Origin: a virus
Direction: 5' to 3' (one strand)
Length of the DNA: 32,564 nucleotides
IMG/VR virus record: IMGVR_UViG_3300010368_000049
Span: 1-32,564 of that record
Of this stretch, positions 4,905-21,700 are shown piece by piece. The position numbers were made by a program, and so were the translations under genes. The notes under the pieces were generated by a model. The model did no database searches. It saw only the letters and a list, made by a program, of their open reading frames with translations, and was not told the DNA's origin. Positions within the stretch are counted from its first letter, which is position 1. The number at the start of each line of letters is the position of its first letter.

Positions 4905-5243
4905 TTGAATCAAAAAACTTCAAGACTGGTACGAGAGAGAGACGAATACTGTTGGCATTGCGGATCACAAACTAATTTAGTTGTTCATCATCGTGCTAAT
5001 AGGGGTATGGGCGGATCGAAGATCCTGGATACTACACAAAACATGATCCTTGTTTGCCGCACTTACAATGATGAAATGGAATCAAACGCTGATGTTGCGA
5101 ATGAAGCAAGAAACAGCGGCCACAAGCTTGGTCACTATGCTTCGCCAACGATGCCGGTTTGGGACAACTTTAGAAAACGTTGGTTTGCTTTAAATACCAA
5201 AGGCGGCAAGTTTATTACCGAACCGCCTAGTTTCTTGTTATAA
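4905..5243 (+). CDS. HNH-type nuclease with altered final motif
   Basis: A 112-residue protein starting at TTG directly after the previous stop (TAATTG). It has the CWHCG zinc knuckle, the HHR core (VVHHRANRGMGGS) and the helix Asn (TQNMILVC), as in phage HNH proteins of the HHRxxRGMGG type. In these families the last element is normally CxxCHxxIE; here it reads CRTYNDEME, with Tyr for the second Cys and Asn for His. HNN variants can still cut DNA, but losing a zinc Cys may weaken the fold. It closes the recombination operon; the regulatory module at 5237 begins inside its last codons. Confidence 0.78.
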   Translation: MNQKTSRLVRERDEYCWHCGSQTNLVVHHRANRGMGGSKILDTTQNMILVCRTYNDEMESNADVANEARNSGHKLGHYASPTMPVWDNFRKRWFALNTKGGKFITEPPSFLL

Positions 5244-5335
5244 ATTCGTTATAAAAAAGTTTATAAGTAACTGGACAATTCGTTTCGAAATGAGAGATAA
5301 TAATCTTGTTCAAACGAAAGTAAAGGGAGAATAAA
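5237..5335 (+). promoter_or_regulatory. regulatory module, copy A
   Basis: First of three copies of a fixed layout. Two GTTATAAA boxes start 11 bases apart at 5237 and 5248 (the first overlaps the HNH stop). TTTCGAAA lies at 5283 (+46) and GATAAT at 5296 (+59), the likely -10 box. TGGACA at 5272-5277 is a fair -35 with an 18-base spacer. An inverted repeat TTCGTTT (5279-5285) / AAACGAA (5312-5318) flanks the -10, and AAAGGGAG is the ribosome site. It should drive the nucleotide-metabolism and replication genes from 5336. Confidence 0.75.
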
Positions 5336-5518
5336 ATGACTGAGAAAGAAATGCAAATCATCCTCGAAGGACTAACTGATGAGGACTTGGGTCAGCACCT
5401 ATCTGATCTTCTTTATGAAGTCGTAAAGTTGACGAACCAAAAAGAGTTTGGTTTGCTTTACGAAATCAAGGACCAGCTTGAACTTGCTCACAACGAATGG
5501 GAGTATCGCAACCAATGA
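5336..5518 (+). CDS. small acidic hypothetical protein under module A
   Basis: A 60-residue acidic helical protein (LTDEDLGQHLSDLLYEVVKL...), first gene behind regulatory module A and with a strong AAAGGGAG ribosome site. I recognise no family. Its position as the first product of the operon, like the unrelated first genes behind modules B (9585) and C (20946), suggests a small early protein acting on the host or on transcription. This is inference only. Its stop overlaps the next start (ATGA at 5515-5518). Confidence 0.7.
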   Translation: MTEKEMQIILEGLTDEDLGQHLSDLLYEVVKLTNQKEFGLLYEIKDQLELAHNEWEYRNQ

Positions 5519-5727
5519 AGCTTGAAGAATTAGCTCGCGACATGAGGCTCGCAGCTTTAGACGGTTATAAGATCGTCACGAAAACCGAATTAGATTTAGT
5601 CCGTAATGAGTTACTTCAGCTTTACTTTCACGCCGGAAGGTGGAAGGGTGGAGCGCGAGACTACGCAGCACGAGAGGCTTTTATGGCCTACAACGAAAGG
5701 GAAAAACGTGCCCATAGTAATAATTGA
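5515..5727 (+). CDS. small hypothetical protein
   Basis: A 70-residue protein read from the ATG that overlaps the preceding stop; a GGGAG at 5499-5503 may serve as ribosome site. It has an N-terminal helical half (KLEELARDMRLAALDGYK), a short middle helix (VRNELLQLYFHAG) and a charged C-terminus. I know no matching family. It overlaps the kinase gene start by 20 bases, so the pair is probably translationally coupled. An earlier in-frame start at 5497 is less likely because it lies inside the previous gene. Confidence 0.6.
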   Translation: MKLEELARDMRLAALDGYKIVTKTELDLVRNELLQLYFHAGRWKGGARDYAAREAFMAYNEREKRAHSNN

Positions 5728-6226
5728 GGGAATCGATGGAAGCGGTAAGTCGACTCTGGCTAACATGATCCAGGAAGTTGCTCAACATAAATACAAAGTG
5801 ATCCGAACTCATCGAGGACCAATGAAAGGATCGGTGGTTGAAGAATACGTTGCGCCTTTATTTGAAGTGGCAGCCGATGAATTACTTATTGCGGATCGTT
5901 GGCATGTGGGCGAAATGATTTACGGTCCAATTTATCGAGGCATAAGTTATGTGGACTCGGTTCTTGAGCACATTGAAAACATCTTGGACGATTTGGGTGC
6001 CGTGAAGTTAGTCATGCTTACTCCAAAAGAAATCATCCAGGATCGGATCTCATCTCGTGGCGAGGATTATTTGAAGCCCGAAGATTTTGATCAGGTTTAC
6101 GACTTCTACGAATCGTTTGCTAAAGAATACTTTTGGGAAGAGATCCGGGAAGTAAATGAATACACTCCATACCAAATCATGGGATGGATCGAAAGGCAGA
6201 AACATGGATTCGATAAGGCACATTAG
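5708..6226 (+). CDS. thymidylate/dNMP kinase-like protein
   Basis: A 172-residue P-loop kinase: EGIDGSGKST at residues 7-16 is the thymidylate-kinase-style Walker A. DRWH follows in the middle (where Tmk has DRY/DRW), and an arginine-rich lid segment (DRISSRGEDYLKP) comes later. The enzyme should phosphorylate dTMP or another dNMP to the diphosphate. I chose GTG 5708, which has GAAAGGG upstream; the longer frame inside the previous gene lacks support. It overlaps the thymidylate-synthase-fold gene by 23 bases. In phages with modified bases, such kinases act on the modified dNMP. Confidence 0.82.
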   Translation: MPIVIIEGIDGSGKSTLANMIQEVAQHKYKVIRTHRGPMKGSVVEEYVAPLFEVAADELLIADRWHVGEMIYGPIYRGISYVDSVLEHIENILDDLGAVKLVMLTPKEIIQDRISSRGEDYLKPEDFDQVYDFYESFAKEYFWEEIREVNEYTPYQIMGWIERQKHGFDKAH

Positions 6227-6890
6227 AGAGCAGTTTGTCAGAAAGCTCTACGACCAAAAATTTGTAGGTGACACGGTTGAGATCCTGGGAGCCAGCTTTA
6301 TTGCTAGCGACAAAACTATTTTTGGTAAGCCCAATGAAGATTACATTCGCCGAGAGATCCAATGGTATTTATCTAAGAGTTTATTCGTCGATGACATCCC
6401 AGTAAAAACGCCTTTGATTTGGCGGCAAATTGCTAGCGACTCAGGAGAAATCAATAGCAATTACGGCTACTTGTTTTTGGCTAAAGAAAACGGCAGTCAG
6501 TTAGATGCGGTTGTGGATCACTTGATCCAAGATTCTGGCAGCCGACGAGCCACAGCGGTTTATACAAATCCGTTTATTCATAAGCAATGGAATCGAGATG
6601 GGATGAGTGATTTTATTTGCACTAATGCTGTTCAATACTTGATCCGTGATGGCAAGCTTGAAGTAGTTGTTCAGATGAGATCCAATGACGCGATCTTTGG
6701 TTATCGCAACGATTACGCTTGGCAAAAGTATGCGCAAGATCTTGTCGTCGATAAACTCGCTTCTAATGGTTTGGTATACGAGCCAGGTAACATAATTTGG
6801 AATGCTGCTAGCTTGCACATTTACAAACGTCACTTTGAGCTTATTAGCAACTATGCTGCCTCAGGCGATTACCTAACGGAAGTGTCATGA
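6204..6890 (+). CDS. thymidylate-synthase-fold enzyme, possible dCMP/dUMP (hydroxy)methylase
   Basis: A 228-residue protein with the ThyA catalytic pattern: C139 (nucleophile), R159-S160-N161-D162 exactly 20 residues later as in E. coli ThyA (C146, R166-S167-x-D169), then H205-x-Y207. It is shorter than E. coli ThyA (264). Ungapped alignment puts D170 (FGYRND) at E. coli Asn177, the residue that selects dUMP. Asp there is known from T4 dCMP hydroxymethylase, and the N-to-D change in Lactobacillus ThyA favours dCMP. Plain thymidylate synthase remains possible. GAAAGG lies 7 bases before ATG 6204; the gene overlaps the deaminase (ATGA). Confidence 0.8.
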   Translation: MDSIRHIREQFVRKLYDQKFVGDTVEILGASFIASDKTIFGKPNEDYIRREIQWYLSKSLFVDDIPVKTPLIWRQIASDSGEINSNYGYLFLAKENGSQLDAVVDHLIQDSGSRRATAVYTNPFIHKQWNRDGMSDFICTNAVQYLIRDGKLEVVVQMRSNDAIFGYRNDYAWQKYAQDLVVDKLASNGLVYEPGNIIWNAASLHIYKRHFELISNYAASGDYLTEVS

Positions 6891-7360
6891 GATCCAGTTG
6901 GGAAGAGACTTGGCTAACGGTTGCCAGGACAATTGCTAAAAGATCTCGCTGCGTGAATCGCCAAGTTGGCGCTGTTATCGTGGACGAAAATAATCGACCG
7001 ATTGCTGTTGGCTATAACGGTCCTCCGGCTAACATGGCAATCAGTAGCGATTGCTCATCATTCTGTCCCCGTGGAGGATCTCAAAATCGGCCTGGATCGT
7101 ATGACAATTGTGTTTCAGTTCATGCCGAGGCCAATGCCTTATTGTTCGCGGATCGAAGGCTATTCAAAGAAGCGACAATTTACGTGACAAATCCTTGCTG
7201 CTGGGATTGCGCAAAACTAATCGCCAACTCGGGTATCACTAGTGTTGTGATGCAAAAATCTGTAGCCGATGATCACGCAACCTGGGATCACGTAATGAAT
7301 TTATTCGACGAATGTAGTATCAGAGCAGTAATTATCGAAAGGGAAAGTAATGACGTTTGA
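6887..7360 (+). CDS. dCMP deaminase
   Basis: A 157-residue zinc cytidine/deoxycytidylate deaminase that converts dCMP to dUMP. The catalytic motif is H79-A-E81 (VHAEANAL), and the other ligands are C105 and C108 in CCWDCAK. The proline that normally precedes the first ligand Cys is here C104. Extra Cys residues (C56, C60, C75) match the second zinc site of T4-type dCMP deaminases. The N-terminus (WEETWLTVARTIAKRS) is the usual first helix. It supplies dUMP to the synthase-fold enzyme just upstream, whose stop it overlaps. It ends within the next gene's start region. Confidence 0.92.
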   Translation: MRSSWEETWLTVARTIAKRSRCVNRQVGAVIVDENNRPIAVGYNGPPANMAISSDCSSFCPRGGSQNRPGSYDNCVSVHAEANALLFADRRLFKEATIYVTNPCCWDCAKLIANSGITSVVMQKSVADDHATWDHVMNLFDECSIRAVIIERESNDV

Positions 7361-7772
7361 ACAGGCGCTAAAGGCTCAGTTAGAGCTGCAAATAAAAAGC
7401 TATGGATCAGATCCAAGAAGATCAGACGAAAACCAAAAGCTTGAGTGGATCAGGTGGAACGTCCTTGCTTTAGAGGATGAGTTGCATGAGGCACTAGCCG
7501 AAACAGGTTGGAAACCGTGGGCAAAATCGAAGCACATCAATCGCGATGCTTATGTTTCAGAATTGGTTGATGCATTTCATTTCTTGATGAACTTGATGCT
7601 CATAGTTGACTGCTCAGCTGAGGAATTCTTAGCTAAGTATTTTGAAAAGCGTGGGATCAATGCAGCCAGGCAAGCGGCCGGATACGACGGCGTTGGTGGT
7701 AAGTGCTCAAAGTGCAAGCGAGCACTTGATGATCCTGCCGTCCAGTGTTCAGAAACTGTGTGTGCCGGGTAA
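7350..7772 (+). CDS. dUTPase/MazG-like all-alpha pyrophosphohydrolase
   Basis: A 140-residue helical protein with the all-alpha NTP pyrophosphatase metal motif: E44-x2-E47 in EDELHEAL and E71-x2-D74 in ELVDAFHF, as in dimeric dUTPases and MazG-like proteins. It probably hydrolyses dUTP (or dCTP) to the monophosphate, feeding the same pathway as the deaminase. A C-terminal extension after residue 115 carries C119, C122, C133 and C138, a likely zinc knuckle not needed for catalysis. GAAAGGG precedes the ATG. Its TAA overlaps the initiator ATG. Confidence 0.78.
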   Translation: MTFEQALKAQLELQIKSYGSDPRRSDENQKLEWIRWNVLALEDELHEALAETGWKPWAKSKHINRDAYVSELVDAFHFLMNLMLIVDCSAEEFLAKYFEKRGINAARQAAGYDGVGGKCSKCKRALDDPAVQCSETVCAG

Positions 7773-8578
7773 TGCCAATCATCAGAGGCGAGCATTCGTT
7801 CGATGGGCAGTTTACTCAAATCCCAAATGCTTGGATCAGAGACGCGAGGCTGAGTTACAAAGCGCGTGGATTACTTGCCGAATTACTAAGCCACTCTCCT
7901 GGATTCGAGATTAGTCGTGAGAAGCTGTCTAAGAACGGCCAGGATGGCGACAGAGCCATCAGAAGCGCAATTCGTGAACTCGAGTCTGTCGGATACCTGA
8001 AAAGGTCTCAGAATCGGACTGAGCAAAATCAGTTTGCAGCGGCGGTTTGGATCACACAAGATCCTGAATCCCCGTCGGTTCGTTCTGCGCCGGCGGGAAA
8101 TGCGCTGGCGGATAATGCAGGGGTAAAGAATACTATAGAGAAGAATACTAAAGATCTAGATAATTCTTTAAGCAATTTGGATGTTTTGTTTTCAGAGTTT
8201 TGGAAAGAATACCCTCGCAAAAAGGACAAAGGATCAGCGTTCAAAGCTTTTAGGTCTGCGCTCAAGCGTGGAAAGTTCGAACAAATCCTGGCCGGAGCTA
8301 TTGCCTATGCAAACGATCCAACGCGAAAACCTGAATACACAAAGTTTCCGGCAACCTGGCTAAACGCTGATGCTTGGGAAAATGAGATCTCACCCTCACC
8401 GGATTCTGAGGCGGCAGAACGAAACAGGATCAGACGCGAAAAAGAAATTGAGCGCACACGCAAATTCTTAGATGAACAAGAAGCGTTGCAATCCGAAGCT
8501 ACTGACGGTCCGCTTTTGTGTGAGCACGGCACTAACATCGCCTTATGTAAAAGGTGCATAGCTACAATAAAGGTGTGA
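7772..8578 (+). CDS. winged-helix replication initiator / replisome organiser
   Basis: A 268-residue protein. Residues 14-80 (FTQIPNAWIRDARLSYKAR..., then ISREKLSKNGQDG and AIRELESVGYLKR) form the winged-helix domain typical of phage replication initiators. A flexible linker rich in Asn/Ser follows, then a DnaD/DnaT-like tail (FWKEYPRKKDKGSAFKAF..., FPATWLNADAW) known to recruit the host helicase loader. The end has CEHG...CKRC, a possible zinc knuckle. No polymerase or helicase is encoded here, so this protein would bring the host replisome to the phage origin. Start chosen at the TAATG overlap. Confidence 0.75.
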   Translation: MPIIRGEHSFDGQFTQIPNAWIRDARLSYKARGLLAELLSHSPGFEISREKLSKNGQDGDRAIRSAIRELESVGYLKRSQNRTEQNQFAAAVWITQDPESPSVRSAPAGNALADNAGVKNTIEKNTKDLDNSLSNLDVLFSEFWKEYPRKKDKGSAFKAFRSALKRGKFEQILAGAIAYANDPTRKPEYTKFPATWLNADAWENEISPSPDSEAAERNRIRREKEIERTRKFLDEQEALQSEATDGPLLCEHGTNIALCKRCIATIKV

Positions 8579-8835
8579 TCGAAATTTTATGTGGCCGCTG
8601 TGGCCGTCTTTGGGAAAGTCAGGGCAGACAAAAAGAGTTTGCTTGGTGCCCAGATTGTCGATCCAGAAAAGCGTTGAAGGTGGATGAGTGTTTACCCTGG
8701 CACGGACATTTCGCAGATGACATGATGACACCAATAAATGAATACAATGAAGAATTGTTACCTGGTCGGAGATCATGTAAGAATAGAGACTGCTGTAATC
8801 CAAAACACATTGAAAGGGAATCATGGCAAGAGTAA
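8575..8835 (+). CDS. Cys-rich zinc protein, HNH_3-like remnant
   Basis: An 86-residue protein read from the GTG that overlaps the initiator stop (GTGA); a GTG at 8554 in the same frame is an alternative. The N-terminal half holds C-x2-C (LCGRCG) and C-x2-C (WCPDCR), one zinc ribbon. The C-terminal half reads CKNRDCCNPKHIE, like the tail of HNH_3 nucleases (CxNxxCxNPxHL), but the usual VDH core is absent. It is probably a zinc-binding DNA-associated protein or a degenerate HNH. It overlaps the SSB-like gene by 13 bases. Confidence 0.6.
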   Translation: MIEILCGRCGRLWESQGRQKEFAWCPDCRSRKALKVDECLPWHGHFADDMMTPINEYNEELLPGRRSCKNRDCCNPKHIERESWQE

Positions 8836-9104
8836 AAATTGAAAGTGCGCGCGTAATTAGGATCATGGAAGGGTATGGATTCAAGGCCGAAGAAGTAATC
8901 CAGCTACGCAACGGCAGCGAGGCGAAACGTTATTACACCGTTTGGACGAAAACAAAAGTCCAGGAGAATGACTTTGTTTCAGTCGATGGCGATCTAAGTG
9001 TAAAGGTCGAAGAATACACGGGCAAGGACAATGTGCCGAAAGTTTCCGCTGGGGTTCACATCAATGATGCGATTGTTCACGCTGCTATAGACGCTCCGTT
9101 CTAA
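8823..9104 (+). CDS. ssb: SSB-like OB-fold protein
   Basis: A 93-residue protein whose centre (YYTVWTKTKVQENDFVSVDG, then LSVKVEEY and GVHINDAIV) follows the strands of single-stranded-DNA-binding OB folds (VxVWTxxxVxEGDxVxVxG...). It lacks the long acidic tail of bacterial SSB and is near minimal OB size. It would coat single strands during phage replication and recombination. GAAAGGG is its ribosome site. It sits between the initiator group and RusA and overlaps both neighbours, so it belongs to the replication operon. Confidence 0.65.
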   Translation: MARVKIESARVIRIMEGYGFKAEEVIQLRNGSEAKRYYTVWTKTKVQENDFVSVDGDLSVKVEEYTGKDNVPKVSAGVHINDAIVHAAIDAPF

Positions 9105-9499
9105 TGATTACCCTTGATGTTCTCGGCGATCCGACTCCTCAGGGCTCAAAACGGGTTTTCAATGGACGGGTCGTCGAGGCAGCAGGCCCAAGGCTAAAAA
9201 CCTGGCGCAAAGCAATTGCAGCCGCATGTGAACCTTTTGCAGATCAGAACATTATGCTCGGACCGATCCGATTAGAAGTTGATTTCTATGTTGCGAGGCC
9301 AAAGTCTGTCAGCATAACTAAACGAGCAAAACCAATTGTGCCGCCGGATCTGGATAAATTGCTTCGAGCCGTTGGCGATGGAATTGGCCAGTCGGAAATA
9401 ATTTGGGGTGACGATAGTCAGATCGTCGAAATGTATGGATCAAAGTCATACGCTGACGACCGAGATCCTGGCGCGATCATCCGCATAATCCAGTTATAA
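9104..9499 (+). CDS. rusA: RusA-type Holliday junction resolvase
   Basis: A 131-residue endonuclease of the RusA family, which cuts four-way junctions made during recombination and before packaging. The acidic metal site is visible: D82 and D84 in PPDLDKLLRAVGDG, D92, and D103-D104 in WGDDSQI. The front half (GDPTPQGSKRVFNGR) is the usual first strand and loop. It starts in the TAATG overlap with the SSB-like gene. Its final codons contain the first box of regulatory module B, which starts at 9493. Confidence 0.92.
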   Translation: MITLDVLGDPTPQGSKRVFNGRVVEAAGPRLKTWRKAIAAACEPFADQNIMLGPIRLEVDFYVARPKSVSITKRAKPIVPPDLDKLLRAVGDGIGQSEIIWGDDSQIVEMYGSKSYADDRDPGAIIRIIQL

Positions 9500-9584
9500 A
9501 TTTGTTATAAAACTATGCACAAATAAACTGTGCTTTCGTTTCGAAACTAGAGATAATTATCTTGTTCAAACGAAAGGGAACAAA
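9493..9584 (+). promoter_or_regulatory. regulatory module, copy B
   Basis: GTTATAAA at 9493 and 9504 (11 bases apart, the first across the RusA stop), TTTCGAAA at 9539 (+46), GATAAT at 9552 (+59) and ATG at +92: the same spacing as copies A and C. The -10 lies in a perfect palindrome AGATAATTATCT (9551-9562). CTTTCGTTT (9533-9541) and AAACGAAAG (9568-9576) form a 9-bp inverted repeat around it. TGTGCT (9529-9534) would be a weak -35 with a 17-base spacer. GAAAGGGA is the ribosome site. Confidence 0.75.
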
Positions 9585-9589
9585 ATGAA
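9553..9589 (+). repeat. 37-bp direct repeat, first copy
   Basis: Bases 9553-9589 are identical to 9899-9935. The unit runs from the right half of the -10 palindrome through the AAACGAAAG arm, the ribosome site and ATGAA. It looks like a duplication of a gene's 5' control end. Confidence 0.85.
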
Positions 9590-9902
9590 CGAAACACTAG
9601 ATTCAGCTATCGAAACTAAAGCTAACGAGCTTGTAGAACTAACTAAAAAGTATAACGTTGGTTGTGAAGTAACTGAGCGCGGTGTCTTCGCCGCTACTGT
9701 TCACTTCTTCCAGTTTACAAAAAAAGGTAATTACGTTCGCATGCAAAGTTTTCTAGAATTTACTGCTACCGGTAAAGTGCGCGTAAAAACCTATTGGTAT
9801 TCAGGTCGCACAACAGAAGTTGTTGCAGCTAAAAACATCGAAGATTCAGTGCAATTCATAGCCACATTGAACGATGAAGCTCGCGCGAAGATGTGGGCAT
9901 AA
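9585..9902 (+). CDS. hypothetical protein, first gene behind module B
   Basis: A 105-residue protein with an N-terminal helix (ETLDSAIETKANELVELTKKY), then alternating strands rich in Phe, Tyr, Val and Thr (GVFAATVHFFQFT, SFLEFTATGKVRVKTYWYSG) and a C-terminal helix. This is an alpha-beta layout without Cys or catalytic motif. I do not recognise a family. It is expressed directly from module B with a strong ribosome site, so an early host-takeover or regulatory role is likely but unproven. Its stop codon lies inside the second copy of the 37-bp repeat. Confidence 0.7.
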   Translation: MNETLDSAIETKANELVELTKKYNVGCEVTERGVFAATVHFFQFTKKGNYVRMQSFLEFTATGKVRVKTYWYSGRTTEVVAAKNIEDSVQFIATLNDEARAKMWA

Positions 9903-9935
9903 TTATCTTGTTCAAACGAAAGGGAACAAAATGAA
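9899..9935 (+). repeat. 37-bp direct repeat, second copy
   Basis: Exact copy of 9553-9589, placed so that it supplies the TAA stop of the preceding gene (9900-9902), the ribosome site and the ATG of the next (9931). It lacks the upstream boxes and the left arm of the inverted repeat, so it probably works as a translation signal and not as a full promoter. Confidence 0.85.
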
Positions 9936-10104
9936 AATCTACAGCAACGAACCAACTACCAAGCTACTTACTTTGCTCAACGAAATGGTTGCAGACAAGC
10001 AAATGCTTCTAGCCAACGGTCTTGACAAGATTGCAGAGCAGGATGACTTTGTTATCGCCAACATTATGAGCGAACTAGATTCAAGAAACTTGCAGGTGGC
10101 ATGA
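9931..10104 (+). CDS. small hypothetical protein
   Basis: A 57-residue helical protein (TTKLLTLLNEMVADKQMLLANGL...) starting at the ATG supplied by the duplicated 37-bp leader; GAAAGGGA is its ribosome site. It contains no Cys or known motif. I do not recognise it. Because its leader is a copy of the one before 9585, the two genes are tuned to similar translation rates. The stop overlaps the next ATG (ATGA at 10101-10104), coupling it to a tiny membrane protein. Confidence 0.65.
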   Translation: MKIYSNEPTTKLLTLLNEMVADKQMLLANGLDKIAEQDDFVIANIMSELDSRNLQVA

Positions 10105-10226
10105 GAATTTGGTATGCAATACGCCGACCTGTCGGTTACGTTTTATTTACACTTGCAGCCTATGCGGCGTTGATCGTGATCCACGCGCTTCCGGTTGTAA
10201 TAACAAACGCAATACTAGGCATCTAA
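10101..10226 (+). CDS. 41-residue membrane protein
   Basis: A short frame from ATG 10101 (overlapping the preceding TGA) to TAA 10224-10226. The product has a basic start (RIWYAIRRP) and one long hydrophobic span (about residues 11-41: GYVLFTLAAYAALIVIHALPVV, then ITNAILGI). This follows the positive-inside rule for a single-pass membrane peptide. It has no signal-peptidase site. Possible jobs are superinfection exclusion or a small holin/antiholin-like factor; neither is shown. The overlap coupling and clean open frame make it a credible gene despite its size. Confidence 0.62.
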   Translation: MRIWYAIRRPVGYVLFTLAAYAALIVIHALPVVITNAILGI

Positions 10227-10240
10227 CGAAAGGGAAAATA

Positions 10241-10531
10241 ATGCCATACACAAGAACAACAGATCCACAAACGTCACACGATGCGGCAAGATCCGTATCG
10301 AAACTAAGCGAAACCTATAGTTTGATTATGGGAATTATGAATAAGTTCGGTCCCATGAATGACGAAAAACTAATTACTACCTGGAAAGCTTCAGGTTTGA
10401 AGCAAATTTCAGAGTCCGGTTTGCGATCGCGTCGATCAGAACTAGTAGCTCAAGGACGGCTTGAAGATAGTGGCGCAAGGGAAAAAATGTCGTCAGGCCG
10501 CCTAAGTATTGTTTGGAGAGTAACAGTATGA
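10241..10531 (+). CDS. winged-helix DNA-binding protein
   Basis: A 96-residue protein. It begins TDPQTSHDAARSV, a phrase common in small phage winged-helix proteins, followed by helices (LSETYSLIMGIMNKFG, NDEKLITTW), a likely recognition helix (SESGLRSRRSELVAQGRL) and a closing wing strand (RLSIVWRV). It is probably a transcriptional regulator or replication accessory factor. CGAAAGGGA lies just before the ATG at 10241. Longer readings upstream overlap the 41-residue membrane gene and are unlikely. Confidence 0.72.
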   Translation: MPYTRTTDPQTSHDAARSVSKLSETYSLIMGIMNKFGPMNDEKLITTWKASGLKQISESGLRSRRSELVAQGRLEDSGAREKMSSGRLSIVWRVTV

Positions 10532-10737
10532 GTAAAGCAACACAAAGTTTACGGCAAGTCCTGGATCGCGATCTAGATCTTCTTGAAATGTCCAATTTCA
10601 ATGAGGGTTTTGAAAGTGCGGTAAGGGCTATCGAAGAAATGTCTAACCAACATCACAACATGGGAAACTCAGTATCGGCTGAGATCCTACGGAAGGCAGC
10701 CGAAGAATTACTAGGAGAAAACGTTGATGCAAATTGA
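10528..10737 (+). CDS. small helical hypothetical protein
   Basis: A 69-residue, wholly helical, mildly acidic protein (SKATQSLRQVLDRDLDLLEM..., SAEILRKAAEELLGE). ATG 10528 overlaps the previous stop (ATGA) and has GGAGAG about 8 bases upstream. I see no catalytic motif and no family. It resembles the product of the next gene in size and helix content, and the two overlap by 11 bases, so they may form a complex; this is a guess from context. Confidence 0.6.
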   Translation: MSKATQSLRQVLDRDLDLLEMSNFNEGFESAVRAIEEMSNQHHNMGNSVSAEILRKAAEELLGENVDAN

Positions 10738-10975
10738 CTGGAGAGAACTCAAGTATCGCATTGCTGATGCACTATTCAATTACGAACTTGATGATGCTTA
10801 CCGTATGGGCTTGCAGGCGGGTACAGAGTTTGCAACTCGCAAATTATCCTTCGCTTTAGAGCTAAACATCGAAAGCATGAAACTGACACCAACTGAGAAA
10901 CGCGGCTATGAGAAAGCCATTGAGGTTTTCAAAGCTGAACGTCACAACGTAGAAGTCTCAGCTGGATTGAAGTAA
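10727..10975 (+). CDS. small helical hypothetical protein
   Basis: An 82-residue protein read from ATG 10727 (AGGAG at 10713-10717 upstream; a TTG one codon earlier is the alternative). Helices cover about residues 4-75, with YRMGLQAGTEFATRKLSFALELN as the central part. No Cys, no membrane segment, no known motif. It ends at TAATG with the methyltransferase gene, so it is co-translated with it. It might be a small partner or control protein for the methyltransferase, but nothing in the sequence proves this. Confidence 0.58.
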   Translation: MQIDWRELKYRIADALFNYELDDAYRMGLQAGTEFATRKLSFALELNIESMKLTPTEKRGYEKAIEVFKAERHNVEVSAGLK

Positions 10976-12165
10976 TGCAGCCAACTGCGATCGACTGTCA
11001 ATCCTTTGCCGGAGGATTTGCGCTTGGCATAGTGCAAGCGGGTTTTGAACTTATTGCTAAGCGTGAATACCCCGGAGGTTTCGGATCAGAAGCAATGTTG
11101 GCAAATAGACATTTGCTTGGTGATTCCTGGGAACTAGAAGCGTGTGATCCAAAAGACTGGAGCCCTAAACAGGCGGATTTAGTTTTTGGTAATCCTCCAT
11201 GCTCAGGTTTTTCAAATCGATCCGTAATGGTTCGCGGACTTTTAGAAGATGGCAGCTTCGGCAACTTGAAAATCCGAGGTGCAAATTCTAAAATCAATGA
11301 ATGCATGTGGGCATTAGTTGAGTATGCAGCCAAGTGTGATCCTAAAATTGTTATTTTTGAGTCTGTACAAGGCGCTTATACAAGTGGTCGAAGTCTTATG
11401 ACGGATCTAAGACAAGAACTTGAAGAACTAACGGGCGAAAAATGGAATTTGTATCACGTACTTCATAACGCTTCAGATTTAGGCGGCGCCCAGGTAAGAC
11501 AACGTTATTTTTGGGTAGCCTCACGTATTCCTTTTGGAGTTGATCCGGTTTTTATGCCGCCAACATCGGTGAGAGATCGGATCTCAGATTTGGCGGATCA
11601 GGATTTTGGAACGATCGAAGGGCATGAAGTAGCACAAACACCGCGTCTTCACAGGATCAAAGAGCTTGCAGATAAATCAGTTTGGCTTGAAGGTGAAACT
11701 AGTGGTGAGGCTTTTAGGCGGGCTGAATTAGCAAATGTTGATCTTGATCTTTGGAGTGAGCCACTTGTATCGGATAAGGGAGTAACTCAGTTTGCCCCCA
11801 AAAGATTACGTTACGACGCACCAAGCCGAGTATTAGCCGGTGACGCATTATCAACAGTTGTGCATCCAATAAAAAGCCGGCCGCTAACCCATCGTGAAGT
11901 TGCTCGTTTGTCAGGATTCCCAGACGACTGGATCACAACACCGTATCGAGTAAAACTAAATAATACTTGTTGGTGGGGTAAAGGTGTAACAGTAGAAGCA
12001 GGTCGTTGGATCGCAAAAGCAGCTTTTGACGCAATTACCGGATCTCCGCAAGAGTTCCAGGGTAAACTAATTGGCGAGCACGAGTATTTGATAGCAGCAA
12101 ATAATAAAGAAAGAATCGAATCGACAAATCAACCATTATTCGATGAAATGGAGATACAGCAATGA
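10975..12165 (+). CDS. C5-cytosine DNA methyltransferase
   Basis: A 396-residue Dcm-type enzyme that methylates cytosine at C5 using S-adenosylmethionine. Motif I is FAGGFALG (11-18); motif IV is NPPCSGFS with catalytic C76; motif VI reads FESV with E129 where ENV is usual; motif VIII is Q173-x-R175-x-R177; motif X is GKGVTVEAGRWIAKA near residue 340-355. The target-recognition region lies between VIII and IX and cannot be read. No restriction partner lies nearby, so it is an orphan, probably protecting phage DNA from host nucleases. It overlaps nrdH by 4 bases. Confidence 0.9.
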   Translation: MQPTAIDCQSFAGGFALGIVQAGFELIAKREYPGGFGSEAMLANRHLLGDSWELEACDPKDWSPKQADLVFGNPPCSGFSNRSVMVRGLLEDGSFGNLKIRGANSKINECMWALVEYAAKCDPKIVIFESVQGAYTSGRSLMTDLRQELEELTGEKWNLYHVLHNASDLGGAQVRQRYFWVASRIPFGVDPVFMPPTSVRDRISDLADQDFGTIEGHEVAQTPRLHRIKELADKSVWLEGETSGEAFRRAELANVDLDLWSEPLVSDKGVTQFAPKRLRYDAPSRVLAGDALSTVVHPIKSRPLTHREVARLSGFPDDWITTPYRVKLNNTCWWGKGVTVEAGRWIAKAAFDAITGSPQEFQGKLIGEHEYLIAANNKERIESTNQPLFDEMEIQQ

Positions 12166-12488
12166 AAGAACTTGTTATTACGGTTTGGACTAAACCTAAT
12201 TGTGTGCAATGTATGCAAACTATGAGGGTGATGGATCAGGAAGAGATCAAATACAAAGTACGCCACCTAGATAAGTCAGTAAAAGCAGTCGAAACTTTTA
12301 AAGAGCTCGGTTTGATGTCAGCGCCAATAGTCGAAACCGATACTAAACGGTGGAGCGGCTTTAGGCTAGAAAAGATCAGATCTTTAGCAAAGCATCTTCG
12401 AGTTGAGAGGATGCACGGGATAAATGTCCCTTTAGAGCCACTAAAGCAAGTAGCAGATGAAGTAGCAGATGAAGGAGAGCAGAAATGA
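12162..12488 (+). CDS. nrdH: NrdH-type glutaredoxin-like protein
   Basis: A 108-residue thioredoxin-fold redoxin. It has the redox pair C14-x2-C17 in KPNCVQCMQT, the cis-proline loop APIV in mid-chain, and WSGFRLEKIRSL where NrdH has WSGFRPD. In hosts NrdH reduces class Ib ribonucleotide reductase; no reductase is present in this window, so it must serve the host enzyme. The last 30 residues extend beyond usual NrdH length (about 75-80) and hold a duplicated VADE. It overlaps the methyltransferase stop (ATGA) and the next gene. Confidence 0.85.
   Translation: MKELVITVWTKPNCVQCMQTMRVMDQEEIKYKVRHLDKSVKAVETFKELGLMSAPIVETDTKRWSGFRLEKIRSLAKHLRVERMHGINVPLEPLKQVADEVADEGEQK
12450..12473 (+). repeat. 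tandem 12-bp repeat in the nrdH tail
   Basis: GTAGCAGATGAA is present twice in direct succession and encodes VADE-VADE near the C-terminus of the redoxin. It is in frame and probably arose by slippage; it lengthens an already extra tail. Confidence 0.8.
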
Positions 12489-12694
12489 GTGATCTAAACG
12501 AATTAATCGCACGAAGCAGTGTTGTTAGTTACCAACAAGGCCGCAAAGATGAGCGGTTGATGATCCTAAAACTTGCTAAAGAAGCAAGTATGAGCAATAA
12601 CACAGGCGATTACGTTTACCTGGACGACTTAAACGACTACATCGACGAATACGACAAGGGACATTATGCGAAAATTTATGCGCAAAAGGACTAG
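12485..12694 (+). CDS. small acidic hypothetical protein
   Basis: A 69-residue protein with a helical N-terminal half (DLNELIARSSVVSYQQGRKDERLMILKLA) and an acidic, Tyr- and Asp-rich second half (YVYLDDLNDYIDEYDKG). GGAGAG is its ribosome site and the ATG overlaps the nrdH stop. The QGxxxER helix is often seen in small phage proteins of unknown role. I cannot assign a function. It overlaps the next gene by 29 bases. Confidence 0.6.
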   Translation: MSDLNELIARSSVVSYQQGRKDERLMILKLAKEASMSNNTGDYVYLDDLNDYIDEYDKGHYAKIYAQKD

Positions 12695-12902
12695 CGAACA
12701 AGTCTACGCAGACTTCAAACAGGCTGCCGGATTACTACAGGATAAAAATCTTGTGTGGAGTAATGATTTTGACGAGATCCGGGTAAACCTGGCAAGAGTT
12801 ATTTCTAACTGTGCGATACGAGGCATCGATAATGATCCTTATTTAGTTGCTCTCGTCAATACACTAATTGCCGATGAAAACGACATAACGATTGGCCGCT
12901 AA
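12666..12902 (+). CDS. small basic-to-acidic hypothetical protein
   Basis: A 78-residue protein. The N-terminus is basic (RKFMRKRTSEQ), followed by helices (VYADFKQAAGLLQ, EIRVNLARVISNCAIRG, DPYLVALVNTLIADE). AAGGG sits 5 bases before ATG 12666; an ATG at 12678 is possible but badly spaced. No family recognised. It shares a TAATG junction with the helix-turn-helix gene that follows, so it is expressed with it. Confidence 0.58.
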   Translation: MRKFMRKRTSEQVYADFKQAAGLLQDKNLVWSNDFDEIRVNLARVISNCAIRGIDNDPYLVALVNTLIADENDITIGR

Positions 12903-13129
12903 TGCTAGAAGAATTAGAACCACCTAAAAACAAAGCAGTTTATTGCAAAGTTAGCGATAGTCTCGATAATCTTGATGAACAAGATCGTTTGATTTTGAAA
13001 CGCGCCTTAGCTGATACTGATTCATGGCCTGCCAAAACTTTGTCAACTGCGCTTAGAAGTAGAGGTTTGAGTTTAGCTGATACAACAATTGCTAAGCATC
13101 GAAATAAAACCTGTGCGTGCTTTAGATAG
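12902..13129 (+). CDS. small helix-turn-helix protein
   Basis: A 75-residue protein. The segment LDEQDRLILKRALADTDSWPAKTLSTALRSRGLSLADTTIAKHRNKTCACFR (read in parts) has the layout of a helix-turn-helix: a packing helix, AKTLSTALRSRG as second helix, and LADTTIAKHRNK as recognition helix, closing with CAC. Similar small proteins with a SxxTIxxHR helix and a terminal CxC occur in actinobacterial phages. It is probably a DNA-binding regulator. It is the last gene before a likely promoter at 13130. Confidence 0.62.
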   Translation: MLEELEPPKNKAVYCKVSDSLDNLDEQDRLILKRALADTDSWPAKTLSTALRSRGLSLADTTIAKHRNKTCACFR

Positions 13130-13141
13130 TAAGTTGGTCTA
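13130..13141 (+). promoter_or_regulatory. possible leaderless promoter of the phosphoesterase gene
   Basis: The 12-base gap has TAAGTT (13130-13135, fits TANNNT) then six bases and ATG 13142, and no Shine-Dalgarno. The layout matches the other leaderless candidates in this window, but the box is weak and run-on translation from the gene above is possible. Confidence 0.3.
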
Positions 13142-14308
13142 ATGCTAGAAGATCTAAATTCACTTTCTAAACAAGGCAGCGATAAACGAAGTGTTGCGCC
13201 TAAAGAATCTTGGCGGCCGCAATTAGAACTTGATGCCGATGGTGGATACTTTGTATCGTCGCCCCAAAAAGAACCTGTAACTAATAGCGAAGAGTTGCTA
13301 GCCGAATTTGATCTTAATCCAGCGGACTGGATCATAACTAACGTGCGAAGAAGCAAGTGGCAGACTTACCATGGCGAATGGCTCGAGTCGTATCGCGTGA
13401 GTTTGAAACCCGCTGCTTATCGAGGATCACTAATTGATGCGTCAGATCTTGAGCGCGAAATAAAAAAATGGAAACCAAATAAAAGCCAAAAGCCAACTAA
13501 AGGCGACTTGACTGCTATCTATAACATTGGTGATACTCAATGGGGCAAGGATGCAGGAGATGGAACATCAGGAACTGTCCGGAGAGTAAGGCAGGCGTTA
13601 GATGCTGCGTTGTATCGACATGATGAGATCAAGAACCGAGGTATAGGCCAAATCGTTTTGCCTCAACTAGGTGACTGTATCGAAGGTGTAGTTTCTCAAG
13701 GTGGAAAGATCGCTGGCCGCCTGGATCTCGATCTCACCAGTCAGATCCGAGTTGGTCGTCGTGTTTTGCTGGAGTGGGTAAAAGCCTTTGCGCCGCTGAC
13801 AGACAAACTAATAATCCCCGTCGTTCCAGGCAACCATGATGAATCACACAGGCAGCTAATCACTGATCCAGTCGATTCCTGGCAGGTTGAAATCGTCCAG
13901 CAAGTTCTTGACATCGCGAAAGAAAATGAAAATCTTCAACATGTTGAGGCAAGGTTCCCAGATAGAGACAACACAACTCTTGCACTAGACTTGTCAGGAA
14001 CAATGGTTGGCTTTGCACACGGCCATCAGATCCGTGATGCTGAGAAGTGGTGGTCCGGCCAAAGTCTCGGTTCAACTCCGGTTGGATCGGCTGAAGTTTT
14101 GATCACGGGTCATTACCATCATTACCAGGTGAAACAAATCGGGCCAAGGCTATGGATACAAATCCCTTCGCTCGACGGAGGCTCTCCATGGTTCAAGGAT
14201 CGAAGAGGATTAGACAGTTGGACTGGTTTAGTGTCATTAGTTGTTGGCGATGGTTATGATCCTCGCCGAGATCTTGTCGTGTTATCAGGGGAGAAACGCG
14301 ATGCCTAG
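13142..14308 (+). CDS. calcineurin-like metallophosphoesterase
   Basis: A 388-residue protein with the two-metal phosphoesterase motifs in order: GDTQ (D131, with Gln where His is usual), LGD178, GNHD (N231-H232-D233), AHGH (H293, H295) and GHYHH (H324, H326). The Q variant is common in phage members. The N-terminal 120 residues form a separate domain (WIITNVRRSKWQTYHGEW...) that could bind DNA. Members of this group are probable DNA nucleases or repair phosphoesterases, related to SbcD/Mre11. Its end overlaps the FmdB-like gene. Confidence 0.85.
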   Translation: MLEDLNSLSKQGSDKRSVAPKESWRPQLELDADGGYFVSSPQKEPVTNSEELLAEFDLNPADWIITNVRRSKWQTYHGEWLESYRVSLKPAAYRGSLIDASDLEREIKKWKPNKSQKPTKGDLTAIYNIGDTQWGKDAGDGTSGTVRRVRQALDAALYRHDEIKNRGIGQIVLPQLGDCIEGVVSQGGKIAGRLDLDLTSQIRVGRRVLLEWVKAFAPLTDKLIIPVVPGNHDESHRQLITDPVDSWQVEIVQQVLDIAKENENLQHVEARFPDRDNTTLALDLSGTMVGFAHGHQIRDAEKWWSGQSLGSTPVGSAEVLITGHYHHYQVKQIGPRLWIQIPSLDGGSPWFKDRRGLDSWTGLVSLVVGDGYDPRRDLVVLSGEKRDA

Positions 14309-20807: not shown

Positions 20808-20853
20808 CCCCTCCGGTGTTTCCCCCTTTCTTCCGGAGGGGTTTCCCTTTTCT
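20808..20853 (+). terminator. intrinsic terminator after the protease operon
   Basis: CCCCTCCGG (20808-20816) and CCGGAGGGG (20833-20841) form a perfect 9-bp GC-rich stem with a 16-base loop, followed by TTTCCCTTTTCT. It lies directly upstream of regulatory module C, so it insulates the small-gene island from the portal-protease transcript. Confidence 0.75.
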
Positions 20854-20945
20854 GTTACAAATCTGTTATCAAAAATGTTTACAAATAACCGTGCATTCAT
20901 TTCGAAATGGGGGATAATTATCTCAACACAACGAAGGGGATTCAA
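20854..20945 (+). promoter_or_regulatory. regulatory module, copy C
   Basis: GTTACAAA at 20854 and GTTATCAA at 20865 (11 bases apart), TTTCGAAA at 20900 (+46; within a 10-bp palindrome ATTTCGAAAT), GATAAT at 20913 (+59) and ATG at +92. These are the same offsets as copies A and B. The -35 candidate is CGTGCA (20890-20895) with a 17-base spacer. The flanking inverted repeat seen in A and B is degraded here. The ribosome site is GAAGGGGA. Confidence 0.72.
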
Positions 20946-21179
20946 ATGAACACAGCAACCAAGCAGCTAAACTCAGTAGTCAAGATCCTAGGCGACATGG
21001 CTTATGAAGAGATTTTCGTTTACGAGACTTCAAATGAGAACTGGATTGAGCTAAGGATTCAAGACAGCAACATTACATGTGTTGATGTATCGCTAATGTT
21101 TCCAAAGCTTCGTTACAAAGTAGCATTTGCAGACTACGACGAGACGATCCTGTCCGTAAGAGATGTACAAATTTCATAA
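20946..21179 (+). CDS. hypothetical protein of the module-C island
   Basis: A 77-residue alpha-beta protein (VVKILGDMAYEEIFVYE, NWIELRIQDSNITCVDVSL, LRYKVAFADYDETILSVRDV) starting behind module C with GAAGGGGA upstream. I recognise no family. It is first in a set of three small genes placed between prohead protease and capsid genes and bounded by terminators, so it is expressed apart from the late structural genes, probably early. A moron-type accessory protein is the best description. Confidence 0.65.
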   Translation: MNTATKQLNSVVKILGDMAYEEIFVYETSNENWIELRIQDSNITCVDVSLMFPKLRYKVAFADYDETILSVRDVQIS

Positions 21180-21206
21180 GTAAATCAAAATAAGAAAGGA
21201 AACAAA

Positions 21207-21380
21207 ATGTTTTCCAAAACAGCAACCGTTTACAAAGTAAGAATCCGAATCAAGGGACAGACCGTCGTTGGCGTTATCATCGAGGCAGACTCCGCAGCCG
21301 AGGCTACAAAGCTAGCTACCGAAGGCTACCCAAATTACCAATCAATCGCTAGCGTCTCACTCGTAAAAGCCATGAAGTAA
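21207..21380 (+). CDS. 57-residue alpha-beta protein
   Basis: A short frame from ATG 21207 (AAAGGA upstream) to TAA 21378-21380. The product reads strand (TVYKVRIRIKG), strand (VVGVIIEAD), helix (SAAEATKLATEG), YPNYQ, final strand (SIASVSLVKA). The AxSxxEAxxxAxxxxPxYQ core is repeated in the next gene, so the two are paralogues of a small beta-beta-alpha-beta family. Function unknown. Confidence 0.65.
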   Translation: MFSKTATVYKVRIRIKGQTVVGVIIEADSAAEATKLATEGYPNYQSIASVSLVKAMK

Positions 21381-21392
21381 CAAGGGTAGACA

Positions 21393-21536
21393 ATGCAAAC
21401 ATACATGATTTTCGGACACGTAAACTTTATAACTCATCACTTTAGCCTTCTTGCTAAATCGTGTGAAGAAGCTGCGGAAATAGCGCTAAAAACATTTCCT
21501 GGTTATCAACTAAGTGCGGTTTGTTTGATAGGCTAA
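21393..21536 (+). CDS. 47-residue alpha-beta protein, paralogue of the previous
   Basis: From ATG 21393 (AAGGG 6 bases upstream) to TAA 21534-21536. It keeps the layout of the gene before it: strand (YMIFGHVNF), strand (HHFSLLAKS), helix (CEEAAEIALKT), FPGYQ, final strand (LSAVCLIG). The chain is shorter at both ends. It is followed 10 bases later by a strong terminator, closing the island. Function unknown; tandem duplication is inferred from the shared pattern. Confidence 0.6.
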   Translation: MQTYMIFGHVNFITHHFSLLAKSCEEAAEIALKTFPGYQLSAVCLIG

Positions 21537-21546
21537 ATAACAAGTT

Positions 21547-21588
21547 TCCCGTCATTGATCTTCCCCCGGATCGGTGGCGGGATTTTTT
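21547..21588 (+). terminator. strong intrinsic terminator after the small-gene island
   Basis: Bases 21547-21560 pair with 21569-21582 in a 14-bp stem (three G-U pairs, no mismatch) over an 8-base loop, followed directly by TTTTTT (21583-21588). It ends the module-C transcript before the capsid gene. The 112 bases from here to the capsid start hold no gene; TAGTAAAAT near 21602 may be part of a capsid promoter, but no clear -35 is seen. Confidence 0.85.
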
Positions 21589-21700
21589 ATGCTTACATGC
21601 TCCTAGTAAAATGGATACAAACGAGTGTGAGTTAGCTCTATCGTTTTCCAGTTGAGCGTCAACGCCACTGATTCACGTAAACTAACTATTAGGAGACAAA

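Follow-up and report, generated by a model that had tools for sequence, protein, structure and literature searches.

A promoter module occurring three times in a freshwater phage genome carries an 11-bp tandem repeat that is probably read by the host response regulator MtrA

In Corynebacterium glutamicum, the response regulator MtrA recognizes the site (A/G)TAACAATttn(A/G)TAACAAT, composed of 8-bp repeats separated by a 3-bp linker, and the sites at which it acts as an activator are located upstream of the -35 hexamer; regulators of the OmpR type often bind at direct repeats (PMC3353115). For response regulators of the OmpR/PhoB family, an 11-bp period of such repeats is typical. The targets of MtrA in C. 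glutamicum include mepA, mepB and nlpC, which are cell-wall peptidase genes. The box of the regulator GlnR, GTnAC-n6-GnAAC with GaAAC as the second half, has the same half-site spacing (PMC10704036). The use of host response regulators by phages is known as well, namely for CtrA in the lytic deferment of alphaproteobacterial phages and, in the account given in the same source, for Spo0A, which halts the cycle of the Bacillus phage phi29 during sporulation (PMC9437464). The open-access literature yielded no report that connects MtrA with early genes of phages, and the use of MtrA proposed here appears to be new.

The stretch of DNA analyzed (the window) comprises 32,564 nucleotides of the virus record IMGVR_UViG_3300010368_000049. 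Three non-coding blocks, designated A, B and C, begin at positions 5237, 9493 and 20854, respectively. In ungapped alignment, each contains two GTTAY boxes 11 bp apart at +0 and +11 from its first base, followed by TTTCGAAA at +46 and GATAAT at +59, while the ATG is located at +99 in A and at +92 in both B and C. The module had been described with this geometry in the first-pass annotation, and all of its positions were verified; a profile built from the three copies scored 98–106 bits at A, B and C and was negative throughout the rest of the window, where its highest score was -22 bits. The only three occurrences of TTTCGAAA in the 32.5-kb window lie within the modules, and the same applies to the pattern RTAAC-N6-RTAAC, for which 0.13 occurrences were expected. 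Pairwise identity among the copies was 15–18/19 in the boxes and 15–17/19 from +46 to +64, as opposed to 12–13/27 in the stretch between them, which bears out the earlier statement that this sequence had diverged while the spacing had been kept. The accompanying claim of identical spacing holds within the window, but copy A has one extra base in two relatives (L005 and L007), so that the spacing is under constraint without being strictly invariant.

In copy A, the paired boxes occupy positions 5237–5252 and read ATAACGAATTTATAAC on the minus strand, a tandem 11-bp direct repeat that is a candidate MtrA-type box by consensus match; a third, imperfect 11-bp unit, GTTTATAAGTA, directly follows. 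The hexamers TGGACA (5272–5277) and GATAAT (5296–5301) stand on the plus strand with 18 bp between them, and the spacer includes the palindrome TTTCGAAA (5283–5290), a possible operator. Transcription is predicted to start at about 5308. The operon headed by A (5336–9499, plus strand) encodes a small ORF, thymidylate kinase, thymidylate synthase, dCMP deaminase, a nucleotide pyrophosphohydrolase/dUTPase-like protein, a replication initiator and, as the last gene, RusA.

In copy B, the MtrA-type box (9493–9508, minus strand, ATAACAAATTTATAAC) overlaps the RusA stop codon; an overlap of the first box with the stop codon of the upstream gene had been noted previously for A and B and was found in both. 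A degenerate -35 position, CTGTGC (9528–9533, plus strand), TTTCGAAA as part of GTTTCGAAAC (9539–9546) and the -10 hexamer GATAAT (9552–9557, plus strand) follow. The operon behind B (9585–14308, plus strand) contains small ORFs and the genes for a DNA methyltransferase, a thioredoxin-fold protein and an exonuclease. An inverted repeat flanking B, CTTTCGTTT...AAACGAAAG, was considered as a conserved hairpin and rejected, being broken in C. A 15-mer, TTGTTCAAACGAAAG, was observed downstream of the -10 hexamer in A and B, with a third occurrence at 9908–9922 lacking the rest of the module.

Copy C consists of the MtrA-type box at 20854–20869 (minus strand, ATAACAGATTTGTAAC), a degenerate -35 position, CCGTGC, at 20889–20894 (plus strand, with GTGCAT two bases on), TTTCGAAA inside ATTTCGAAAT at 20900–20907, and GATAAT at 20913–20918 (plus strand). 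It heads two small ORFs without assigned function (20946–21380, plus strand). Terminator-like hairpins on the plus strand lie just upstream of the copy (20823–20841) and before the major capsid gene (21547–21582), so that copy C and its two ORFs form a cassette (20823–21582) between terminator-like sites among the head genes. Other small genes were seen at this place in three relatives (L015, L053 and G004). The view that each of the three copies heads a separate operon was supported, and the gene content of these operons suggests an early character.

Judged from its sequence, the layout is that of a sigma70-type promoter with a weak -35, GATAAT as the -10 and the 11-bp tandem direct repeat just upstream. 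Hexamers with the 16–18-bp spacer of sigma70 promoters were found in copy A (TGGACA-18-GATAAT) and in the related contig L131, which has the same layout with a perfect -35 (TTGACA-18-TAATCT), TTTCGAAA in the spacer and GTTATAAAACTGTTACAAA upstream. The GATAAT hexamer is well suited as a -10; the hexamers 18 bp upstream of it in B and C are poor matches to a -35, which suggests dependence on an activator. The box of copy A begins 35 bp before the -35, in agreement with the position of MtrA-activated sites. TTTCGAAA, in turn, is situated between -35 and -10, a classical place for a repressor operator. It is limited to the closest relatives and L131, in contrast to the paired boxes, which occur widely. 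Phage promoters of L106, L129, L131, G003 and G004 and copies B and C of the window also have an AAATA element shortly before the -35; we take it to resemble the A+T-rich motif found in promoters of the WhiB7 type, or else a UP element in proximal position, and the phages concerned mostly carry WhiB genes.

Relatives were gathered as 145 contig stretches by means of pattern scans and protein searches with the capsid and RusA, and spacing statistics were computed for same-strand RTAAC pairs in 153 related phage sequences (1.66 Mb). A peak was obtained at exactly 11 bp, with 64 distinct sites compared with about 8 at other spacings, and no such peak appeared in the reversed control of the same 153 sequences. 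Nearly all of the 64 sites are located in gaps before genes. Conservation of the box spacing in related phages had been set by the first-pass annotation as a check that could refute the module, and the spacing proved to be conserved, with 11 bp clearly over-used. Inverted RTAAC/GTTAY pairs at 12 bp numbered 50 in the related phage sequences, counted without deduplication. In nearly every relative, the position corresponding to copy B, immediately behind RusA, is taken by a promoter region in which TATAAC, GTAAC or GTTAY boxes recur, often in the opposite orientation.

With -35 and -10 positions in the relatives called by a simple score, the site and the -35 were separated by 24–26 bp (11 promoters) or 35–37 bp (12 promoters) in one orientation and 31–33 bp (16 promoters) in the other, although these promoters are partly related by descent and the counts are not independent observations. 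The two classes of the first orientation lie one helical turn apart, as would be needed by a bound activator in contact with RNA polymerase. The boxes might alternatively serve as an A+T-rich UP element for the alpha subunits of RNA polymerase, with no dedicated activator involved. Their A+T content, their location upstream of the -35 and their register with the DNA turn would suit such a role, which is nevertheless highly improbable, given that the RTAAC core contains a C and is not an A/T tract, that the 11-bp spacing is specific, and that both orientations occur, each with distances of its own.

The nearest isolate is the Pontimonas phage phiPsal1 (MG835450), whose major capsid protein is 66% identical. 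Its 31-kb genome contains no strict RTAAC-N6-RTAAC site, and the trait is therefore not universal. The earlier remark that the module is not recognizable from any described phage was consistent with these results, as no near DNA match was obtained and the module is missing from phiPsal1. The only bacterial genome with a relative of the capsid was a Microbacteriaceae MAG; on these sequence relationships, Microbacteriaceae are the likely host family. In this predicted host family, 147 of the 150 genomes contained an MtrA above the curated cut-off, and the Pontimonas protein could be aligned over its full length with MtrA of Mycobacterium tuberculosis.

The repeat of the window and its relatives has the format of MtrA sites, namely an 8-bp direct repeat with a 3-bp linker, an 11-bp period and an RTAAC core. 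Agreement with the MtrA consensus was 16/19 for copy A (with the 3' flank) and 15/19 for both B and C, the consensus being that of C. glutamicum and the phage host a predicted one. The boxes known from C. glutamicum, M. tuberculosis and Streptomyces share with those of the phages the 11-bp-period direct repeat, the RTAAC core and the position upstream of the -35.

A further likeness was found in chromosomes of the family that these phages probably infect. In 20 small Microbacteriaceae genomes, 80 strict RTAAC-N6-RTAAC sites were counted, compared with 56 RTAAC pairs at the control spacing of 13 bp; this excess is only modest, and the argument rests on position rather than number. The repeat was present 46–123 bp upstream of 5 of the 23 NlpC/P60 or CHAP (peptidoglycan-hydrolase) genes, with about 0.02 expected, and 11 bp was the preferred spacing of RTAAC pairs in the regions upstream of such genes; the remaining 18 of 23 had no strict site. 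The value of 5/23 was anchored on domain position; a gene-start rule, which took a neighboring ORF at two hydrolase loci, gave 3/21. This enrichment before peptidoglycan-hydrolase genes points to the MtrA regulon. Several 16-mers were letter-identical between phages and hosts, among them ATAACGAATTGGTAAC and GTAACAAAAAGATAAC.

Since GlnR half-sites (GTnAC-n6-GnAAC; PMC10704036) have the identical spacing, the boxes could also be those of GlnR, in which case the promoters would respond to nitrogen. The two boxes share the GTnAC half-site and the 11-bp period, and it is the second half that separates them. In the phages, this half was ATAAC in 39 cases and GTAAC in 25 (background 3 each), whereas GAAAC occurred twice (background 4.7); the lack of enrichment of GAAAC at +11 argues against GlnR. 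As a control, glnA promoters of the 20 small Microbacteriaceae genomes contained GTAAC-N6-GAAAC, an apparent GlnR box, in 8 cases and the strict phage-type site in none, which indicates that these bacteria keep the GlnR-type and phage-type boxes apart. On the half-site statistics and the glnA control, the GlnR reading was rejected as very unlikely.

The computed sequence, geometry, conservation, host occurrence and consensus match are most readily accommodated if the module is an early promoter of the sigma70 type, its -35 being degenerate, and if an OmpR/PhoB-family regulator of the host, in all probability MtrA, binds the 11-bp repeat and acts as an activator rather than a repressor (probability roughly 0.7 for this explanation as a whole). 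Another host regulator of this family, such as RegX3/PhoP or the winged-helix protein without a receiver whose gene neighbors photolyase, might read a similar 11-bp repeat, with the same logic and a different signal. Such repeats are indeed bound by other OmpR-family regulators, and in three Microbacteriaceae genomes (L189, L191 and L199) a conserved RTAAC-type site has photolyase on one side and an orphan OmpR-type winged-helix gene on the other, which could indicate a second reader. This alternative was considered rather unlikely, as the enrichment before hydrolase genes and the good fit to the C. glutamicum consensus favor MtrA, and the site lies downstream, not upstream, of the orphan gene itself. 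Streamlined Microbacteriaceae have kept 4–11 two-component systems (PMC6106888).

In L189, L191 and L199, the RTAAC-type box of this conserved intergenic stretch beside photolyase is accompanied by a conserved segment and a terminator-like hairpin; the stretch gave no Rfam match and may be the gene of a small RNA controlled by the same regulator.

A reader encoded by the phage, either a WhiB protein, of which it has two, or a helix-turn-helix protein, had been suggested in the first-pass annotation. WhiB genes were detected in 15 of 18 related phage records, and the AAATA element upstream of the -35 in many promoters presumably recalls WhiB7-type promoters; the replication initiator, which has a helix-turn-helix, would be another candidate. 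This suggestion lost ground, and a phage-encoded reader now seems improbable, because the same 11-bp repeat stands ahead of host genes in chromosomes of the host family and matches the published MtrA consensus; WhiB does not explain the host copies of the box. Two records with boxes, G013 and G018, had no detectable WhiB gene, both being fragments. Binding of 11-bp tandem repeats is not known for WhiB proteins. A phage-encoded OmpR regulator was likewise rejected, as none of the 18 phage records contained an OmpR-type (Trans_reg_C) domain above the cut-off. WhiB may still act as a partner at the -35. The occurrence of the same repeat before host peptidoglycan-hydrolase genes also qualifies the former designation as a phage-specific promoter-operator: a promoter-operator with constrained and conserved geometry was retained, and its phage specificity was not.

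If MtrA is the reader, two DNA-binding domains would be arranged head-to-tail on RTAAC-N6-RTAAC, one helical turn apart, and the bound regulator, at about -70 to -55 from the transcription start, would occupy a constant side of the helix relative to RNA polymerase and activate transcription. The nucleotide-metabolism and replication operon, the methylase and exonuclease operon and the small cassette among the head genes would in this way be coupled to the state of the host MtrB-MtrA system. In the closest relatives, TTTCGAAA between -35 and -10 could function as a separate operator able to shut the promoter. Unlike chromosomal MtrA boxes, those of the phages head phage operons and are A+T-rich variants, and their reading by MtrA is a prediction from sequence.

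As in the CtrA-regulated phages, sites for a host master response regulator would be concentrated in promoter regions (PMC9437464). The regulator, the phylum and the box are different, and each promoter here has a single paired site or a few of them in activator-type geometry, instead of a dense cluster in one region. Control of phage genes is known for CtrA; for MtrA it is predicted from the sites. The likeness to phi29 lies in sites for a host response regulator in a lytic phage; Spo0A, as described in that source, halts the cycle (PMC9437464), while the position of the boxes in the present promoters suggests activation.

The arrangement suggests that the phage ties its early genes to host cell-wall and growth signaling. 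A broader interpretation, offered only tentatively and more open to doubt than the assignment of MtrA itself, is that a widespread lineage of aquatic actinophages uses MtrB-MtrA as a physiological checkpoint, with early operons firing only when host MtrA is active and the TTTCGAAA operator providing a second input. Active MtrA would then stand for a state of growth, division, envelope or osmotic conditions, and the system would be an actinobacterial counterpart of CtrA deferment built on activation. Were this true, these phages would read the activation state of a regulator that is near-universal in Microbacteriaceae and conserved in actinobacteria, and the use of host master response regulators by phages would extend to another phylum by an independent route. 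It would also offer an experimentally tractable way to learn how the timing of replication is decided in phages of abundant streamlined freshwater actinobacteria, and a DNA signature by which uncultured phages could be assigned to hosts. The catalogue of boxes could be used for predicting the MtrA regulon in Microbacteriaceae.

A separate observation concerned the leader of the major capsid gene. Two tandem hairpins, of the CGGAUGUGAGUCAGCUCUGCCG and CAGUUGAGCGUCAACGCCACUG type, were found at 21636–21686 of the window and in 14 relatives, including phiPsal1, which thus shares this element while lacking the paired boxes. Rfam and tRNA scans gave no match anywhere in the window, the leader included. 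Compensatory changes were present in 8 of the 13 predicted pairs, and the tandem hairpins are likely an RNA element controlling capsid expression.
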